DNA of 64,000 nt from Anaeromyxobacter dehalogenans 2CP-1. GTDB taxonomy: Bacteria; Myxococcota; Myxococcia; Myxococcales; Anaeromyxobacteraceae. The stretch spans positions 2,430,001 through 2,494,000 of the forward strand of contig NC_011891.1 in assembly GCF_000022145.1 (NCBI RefSeq). The letters are read 5' to 3'. A model generated the notes under the pieces. The model did not search any database. It saw only the letters and a program-made list of their open reading frames with translations, and was not told where the DNA came from. Below, piece after piece: positions 27,494 to 29,899 of this stretch (its first letter is position 1; each line of letters begins with the position of its first letter). The position numbers and the translations under genes are program-made.

Positions 27494-28852
<1,359 letters not shown>

Positions 28853-28862
28853 AACGCGGCCC

Positions 28863-29243
28863 ATGAGCACCCCCACGCCCACCCATCCCGGCGCCGAGAC
28901 CGGCGCGCTCCGCGCCGAGCACGACGCGCTCGCGAAGCGACTCGAGGTGCGCCGCTCCATCGACGTGGCCCGGCGCGGGGCCTACGAGATCTTCGCCGGG
29001 CTCATCGGCGTGGGCGCGTCCATCGCGCTCGCCTGGGATCGCTGGGGCAAGCTCAAGCCCGGCATGGTCCGCAAGGTGGCGAAGGGCCCGCCGGTGTTCC
29101 TGTACCTCGCGGTCGCGGCGGCGGTGGTGCTGCTCGTGCTCGCCGTCCGCTCCTTCCTGCGCGCTCGCCGCCTCATGCGCGAGGAGGACGCGCTGTACGC
29201 GCGGTTCCGCGCGCTGCGCGAGACGCTGAGGCTGGATCCGTGA
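28863..29243 (+). CDS. Small membrane protein of unknown function
   Basis: 126 residues. A helical N-terminus (about 15-35) is followed by a moderately hydrophobic segment GAYEIFAGLIGVGASIALAW, a clear membrane helix VFLYLAVAAAVVLLVLAV (about 80-98) and a basic/helical tail. No known family is recognised. The stop overlaps the tmk start (GTGA), so the two are translated together. Confidence 0.75.
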   Translation: MSTPTPTHPGAETGALRAEHDALAKRLEVRRSIDVARRGAYEIFAGLIGVGASIALAWDRWGKLKPGMVRKVAKGPPVFLYLAVAAAVVLLVLAVRSFLRARRLMREEDALYARFRALRETLRLDP

Positions 29244-29899
29244 GCGCGGCGGGGGGCGGCGGACGCGGACGTCCGGCCGCTCGCGGCCGCTTCGTCGTCC
29301 TCGAGGGGCTCGACGGCGCCGGGACCACCACGCAGGCGCGGCTGCTCGGCGAGCGGCTCCGCGCGGACGGCCGCACCGCCCACGTCACCGCCGAGCCGTC
29401 CGGGGGGCCGGTGGGCGCGCTCGTTCGCCAGGTGCTGACGCGCCGCGTGACCGGCGTCGCGGGCGCGGACTTCGACCCGCACGCGCTCGCGCTGCTGTTC
29501 GCGGCGGATCGCCGCGATCACCGGGCCGTCGAGATCGACCCGAAGCTGGCCGCGGGGATCGACGTCGTCTCCGACCGCTACACGCTGTCGTCGCTCGCCT
29601 ACCAGGGCGCGGCGCTCGGGGAGATGGAGTGGGTCCGCCAGGTGAACGGGGCGGCGGGCCCGCCGGACGCGACGCTGTTCCTCCGGGTGCGGCCCGAGGT
29701 CGCGCTGCGGCGCCGGCGCGCCGCGTCGCTCGACCGCGAGATCTACGAGGTGGGCGCGTTCCAGCGGAAGGTGGCCGCCGAGTACGATCGCGCCATCGCG
29801 CTGTTGCGCCAGGCGGGCGAGAGCGTGATCGAGATCGACGGTGAGCGCCCGGTGGAGGCCGTGGCCGCCGCGGTGTGGGCGGCCGTCTCGACCCTGTAG
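29240..29899 (+). CDS. tmk: Thymidylate kinase with altered Walker A
   Basis: 219 residues, GTG start overlapping the previous stop. The dTMP kinase fold is clear: VVLEGLDGAGTTTQARLLGE, AEPSGGPVG, DRYTLSSLAYQGAA (the DRY/substrate motif) and FLRVRPEVALRRRRAA (the LID/P-loop partner). The Walker A loop reads GLDGAGTTTQ: the lysine expected after the last Gly (GKT/GKS) is Thr. An Arg from the LID may compensate, or the enzyme may be less active. It should phosphorylate dTMP to dTDP. Confidence 0.88.
   Translation: MSAAGGGGRGRPAARGRFVVLEGLDGAGTTTQARLLGERLRADGRTAHVTAEPSGGPVGALVRQVLTRRVTGVAGADFDPHALALLFAADRRDHRAVEIDPKLAAGIDVVSDRYTLSSLAYQGAALGEMEWVRQVNGAAGPPDATLFLRVRPEVALRRRRAASLDREIYEVGAFQRKVAAEYDRAIALLRQAGESVIEIDGERPVEAVAAAVWAAVSTL

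Follow-up and report, generated by a model that had tools for sequence, protein, structure and literature searches.

Encoded in the 64,000-nucleotide stretch of the Anaeromyxobacter dehalogenans 2CP-1 genome analysed here (the window) is a dTMP kinase (TMK) with threonine in place of the Walker A lysine. With good confidence, we take it to be the working dTMP kinase of the cell, belonging to a widespread lineage in which this lysine has given way to threonine, or sometimes to serine or histidine, and in which arginines already present in the enzyme would serve instead. NTP binding and catalysis are widely held to require the P-loop lysine, and proteins are classed as dead when it is missing; dTMP kinase is required for the synthesis of dTTP, a building block of DNA. 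The lysine-less form is real and conserved and very probably functional, and neither a report of such TMKs nor a published activity for any of them, GTTTQ forms included, was found in the open-licence PMC literature.

The window tmk is an intact reading frame with a GTG start, and its product scores far above the cut-offs of the dTMP kinase equivalog model TIGR00041 (149.9 bits; cut-off 83.25) and of PF02223 (137.4 bits; cut-off 27), in keeping with the otherwise healthy gene of the original prediction. The canonical Walker A pattern GxxxxGK[ST] places lysine before the Ser/Thr Mg ligand. In the window enzyme the ligand is present as normal (Thr30, K+1) and the residue directly before it is Thr29; the missing lysine had been predicted correctly. 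Because Thr29 replaces the lysine, we classify the protein as a TMK from its homology and do not count it among canonical Walker A proteins. The DRY motif and the LID arginines, likewise expected to be intact, were all found, and the LID is basic (Table 1). Overlapping the tmk start codon is the 3′ end of a 138-aa ORF (28827–29243) without a Pfam match, which is preceded by a PALP-family enzyme; a MoCF/FAD-synthase-type protein follows tmk.

Table 1. Coordinates of tmk and its functional motifs in the window.
Feature	Position	Strand	Evidence
tmk (219 aa), dTMP kinase with a lysine-less Walker A	29240..29899	+	ORF, TIGR00041, PF02223, predicted fold
P-loop GLDGAGTTTQ, residues 23-32	29306..29335	+	Sequence and translation
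ACC codon of Thr29, in place of the Walker A lysine	29324..29326	+	Sequence, alignment, codon comparison
Arg91, invariant with and without the Walker A lysine	29510..29512	+	TMK alignment
DRY motif, D112 R113 Y114	29573..29581	+	Translation and alignment
LID segment RRRRAASLDREIYE, residues 157-170, invariant Arg158	29708..29749	+	TMK alignment

A sequencing or frame error as the source of Thr29 can be ruled out, because threonine is found at this position in the two closest relatives (96% and 95% identity to the window enzyme) and in all 22 rows of the same family (the window gene and 21 other genomes), written there with two different codons (ACC in 14 rows, ACG in 8). Across the Myxococcota rows all four threonine codons are used (ACC 49, ACG 25, ACT 5 and ACA 5). 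Values of dN/dS (Nei–Gojobori) between the window tmk and nine relatives range from 0.086 to 0.47, those to the two nearest being 0.086 and 0.168, indicative of purifying selection. Owing to the use of all four codons and the low dN/dS, threonine itself appears to be kept at the lysine position.

The predicted structure is that of an ordinary TMK. An AlphaFold2 model of the window enzyme, built with 44 lysine-less sequences, has a pLDDT of 94.1 and a pTM of 0.88, its least certain internal stretch being the LID block 161–170 (mean pLDDT of 75). The best 50 aligned PDB entries are all TMKs (Z-scores of 24.5–26.8), among them human TMK with ADP, TDP and Mg (1e2g; Z-score of 26.8 and r.m.s.d. of 1.3 Å) and the Aquifex aeolicus enzyme 4s35, these two superposing with a Z-score of 26.8 and r.m.s.d. 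of 1.3–1.5 Å over 188–189 residues. The best profile match, A. aeolicus TMK 2pbr, has lysine where the window enzyme has threonine. Matches were obtained to 42 distinct TMK-like sequences in the PDB, and among the alignments listed all have lysine except 5x8j, a Thermus TMK otherwise matching 5x7j, whose methionine presumably marks an engineered mutant.

Rather than the oddity of a single gene, as first supposed, loss of the lysine is a widespread feature of a TMK lineage, being the normal state in the lineage of the window gene and present in many other phyla. A TMK match was found in 184 of the 193 Myxococcota genomes searched; two incomplete genomes of the window's family had none. At the lysine position of the best TMK, read in 116 of the 193 genomes, threonine occurs in 84, serine in 6, histidine in 5 and lysine in 21, making 95 of 116 non-lysine; four rows (L120–L123), unreadable or not ordinary TMKs, were dropped. 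Twenty of the 21 lysine genomes have other, GK[ST]-type TMKs, and those of them placed in the tree lie outside the lysine-less clade; the last (L109) is a lysine form within that clade. Histidine, as GSGHT, is found in small Myxococcota genomes of one family (f26; L052, L060, L062, L104 and L110).

The GTTTQ motif extends beyond its own clade, to which it might have been specific. A GTDB-wide DNA scan, with the Gln codon fixed as CAA, gave at least 119 loci, at least 111 of them TMKs, in at least 21 named phyla including archaea, these counts being lower bounds because CAA was required and more loci exist than the 119 listed. Many matches come from metagenome bins and may be mis-binned, and 15 of the 119 loci (non-TMK, cut short or not recovered) stand outside the alignment. 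GTTTQ TMKs number at least 43 loci in Spirochaetota and at least 24 in Myxococcota; others are from Planctomycetota, Latescibacterota, Cyanobacteriota, Gemmatimonadota and several archaeal phyla, and at least 10 bacterial loci belong to no named phylum. Among Spirochaetota, 117 of 120 genomes searched had a match, and the P-loops of 70 of these, a non-random set of 30 best and 40 hand-picked rows, comprise 57 with lysine and 13 with threonine. A mobile or phage origin is not backed by the searches: the plasmid and phage records matched by tblastn (21 and 23, respectively) are all below 60% identity, and all nine plasmid or phage TMK matches examined have the lysine.

In a quick tree of 172 rows, from which the P-loop columns were left out, at least six changes between lysine and non-lysine are counted, a provisional figure, since 80 of the 169 internal branches are open and the tree has long branches and an uneven composition of letters. 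A set of 119 rows consists of 117 without the lysine and two with it (L109 and L316, the position of L316 being provisional). Outside it are the non-lysine rows L166; L136, L171, L176 and L236; and L151, L188, L231 and L237. Many forks being open, the order and direction of the changes are unsure.

The original prediction held that, if this were the only tmk, catalysis must proceed by another residue or a second kinase must exist. The A. dehalogenans 2CP-1 genome, a single contig of 5,029,329 bases, has three PF02223 matches: the window tmk (1.1e-39), L002 (1.7e-18) and L003 (1.2e-4). L003 was rejected as a TMK, being a deoxynucleoside kinase (PF01712). L002, of about 566 aa, has a canonical GIDGSGKT P-loop; the genome search thus does find an extra TMK-like protein, but one with DRS in place of DRY and, at 67.1–68.7 bits (slightly different starts), below the TIGR00041 cut-off of 83.25. 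Its gene adjoins a VTC-domain ORF. With L375, L377 and L121 it forms a set of myxobacterial proteins of about 570 aa, in which a TMK-like domain with GIDGSGKT at the N terminus is followed by a long C-terminal part of repetitive appearance. In Myxococcaceae these homologues exceed the TIGR00041 cut-off (L375, 102.9 bits; L377, 97.5 bits), and the protein might therefore be a second true TMK there that could share the work.

On the strength of the canonical P-loop of L002 and of the Myxococcaceae scores, the window protein could be supposed inactive or regulatory, with L002 or the ~570-aa protein making dTDP. We consider this unlikely, given the low score and DRS motif of L002, the purifying selection on the window tmk, and the existence of genomes in which the lysine-less enzyme is the sole PF02223 match. 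Three such genomes were found among 24 rechecked: G171, of the same genus as the window, complete on one contig (listed contamination 6) and without an L002 counterpart; G060, of the window's family and also on one contig, where the lysine-less TMK is the only TMK homologue; and G282, a 1.1-Mb spirochaete with the P-loop GIDGTGTST. In most of the remaining rechecked genomes there are additional PF02223 matches that are weaker; these are chiefly proteins of about 570 aa and near-cut-off matches. For 50 of the 119 GTTTQ loci, PF02223 matches below 1e-20 were counted in the genome: one in 46 cases and two in four (G193, G226, G229 and G241); in G226 (Bacillus sp. FJAT-27264) and G229 (Ignatzschineria) a lysine-bearing TMK accompanies the lysine-less one. 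L002, being below the cut-off, altered to DRS and lacking from close single-contig relatives, need not be invoked to account for survival; of the two predicted outcomes, catalysis without the lysine is favoured and the need for a second kinase is not. As the change is common to many distant bacteria and some archaea, often in the only copy, the enzyme very probably works without the lysine.

A T4-type dNMP kinase, described in PMC10653934 as taking over from a broken tmk in Pseudomonas putida, was also considered and rejected as the alternative dTMP kinase, since a profile search for PF21448 gave no match in the A. dehalogenans 2CP-1 genome (a Corynebacterium glutamicum positive control matched). 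The same profile had no match in nine other genomes, including G171, G060 and G282. The source of dTMP in the window's genome is ThyX, with PF02511 present and ThyA (PF00303) absent.

All 44 lysine-less sequences of alignment A1 match TIGR00041, and E22, G23, D25, G26, G28, T29, T30, T31 and Q32 are invariant among them, the scan behind 43 of the 44 having itself selected the Gly, TTT and Q codons. Basic residues were compared at every column between 213 non-lysine and 80 lysine-bearing TMK rows. All of the former (100%) and 95–100% of the latter have Arg91, Arg113 and Arg158 (Arg113 in 100% of both), and Arg63 occurs in 94% and 99%, respectively. No column shows a gained Lys or Arg that nearly all lysine-less rows share and few lysine-bearing rows have, and a newly acquired substitute lysine was accordingly rejected. 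Column 61 is basic in 72% of lysine-bearing rows and not in lysine-less ones, which is opposite in direction to compensation, and the largest differences between the groups fall mainly at columns of hydrophobic or small residues, among them A84, A88 and W131.

According to PMC9599734, the arginine that follows the Walker B aspartate serves TMKs as a finger, and Arg or Lys of the LID are the key residues of P-loop kinases. We propose that the window enzyme would phosphorylate dTMP with ATP–Mg, with P-loop backbone amides and the Mg ligand Thr30 holding Mg-ATP, and with the charge on the β- and γ-phosphates balanced by pre-existing TMK arginines, namely the DRY residue Arg113, Arg91, and Arg158 with its neighbours in the LID. 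The LID arginines would close over ATP upon dTMP binding, and a newly acquired lysine would have no part. With no obvious covarying substitute found, the case for the arginines draws on residues that both groups share and on analogy.

A possible, distinctly less probable, arrangement is that a basic residue has moved into the place of the lysine separately in each subclade, as in WNK kinases; the positive residue would then differ per subclade, for which reason no single column would show it. Consistent with this, the LID arginines differ in position among subclades (Arg162 is present in 75% of lysine-less rows and missing in the window enzyme, which has Arg at 159, 160 and 166), and 50% of the lysine-less rows have Arg69 and none of the lysine-bearing rows do; the column comparison, with no basic column shared by nearly all lysine-less rows yet rare in lysine-bearing ones, speaks against it. 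That the lysine-less enzymes use a donor other than ATP (GTP, ADP or polyphosphate, for instance) or a different metal chemistry, which relaxed the need for the lysine, is highly improbable. The changed residue is indeed the one contacting the ATP phosphates, and one A1 member has a PPK2-model match, but that match is weak (E of 0.00058) and confined to 1 of 44 sequences, Thr30, DRY, Arg91 and Arg158 are retained, and the closest solved folds are ATP-using TMKs.

A lysine-less subclade has TRY for DRY, in 8 of 241 non-lysine rows, two being second copies of the same loci (L148, L202 and L240, which are cyanobacterial records, and L194, L198 and L268). In the cyanobacterial genomes G208 and G240 the TRY-type TMK is the only PF02223 match. 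Two TRY-type genes are extra copies: L194 (7090–7731) of Bacillus sp. FJAT-27264, near a metallophosphoesterase (PF00149), and L198 (3974–4657) of Ignatzschineria, near a dCTP deaminase-like protein (PF22769); their surroundings are possibly a mobile or defence-type nucleotide cluster. We see an even chance that the phylum-spanning dTMP kinases without the Walker A lysine carry out phosphoryl transfer by an arginine-only phosphate clamp, and that their cyanobacterial branch does so without the DRY Asp too, which would make both P-loop hallmarks dispensable in an essential natural enzyme.

A housekeeping enzyme appears to manage without the P-loop lysine in many lineages, and pseudo-enzymes should not be called from Walker A alone. 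The lysine and non-lysine states of related TMKs offer a natural series for measuring the contribution of the lysine.

Compared with the bacterial dTMP kinase family (TIGR00041/PF02223), the window enzyme has the same fold, length, DRY motif, Arg91 and LID arginine, and differs in the change of the Walker A lysine to threonine. Human TMK, which we take to have the Walker A lysine and an extra P-loop arginine lacking in the window enzyme, would differ from lysine-less TMKs at the ATP site. The WNK (with-no-lysine) protein kinases naturally lack the canonical ATP-contacting lysine, for which a lysine from elsewhere substitutes; their fold is unrelated, and a substitute residue of this type was not seen in lysine-less TMKs. 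A further comparison is with mycobacterial dephospho-CoA kinase, another P-loop kinase: as reported in PMC3019153, the P-loop mutant Lys14Ala loses only 19% of kcat, whereas Asp32 and Arg140 mutants fall to below 5–10% efficiency, Arg140 being a critical nucleotide-binding/LID residue. Lys14Ala is an engineered mutant in another kinase family, unlike the natural TMK lineage. Retention of most of the kcat without the lysine, together with dependence on an arginine, suggests by analogy that loss of the lysine would be tolerable in principle.
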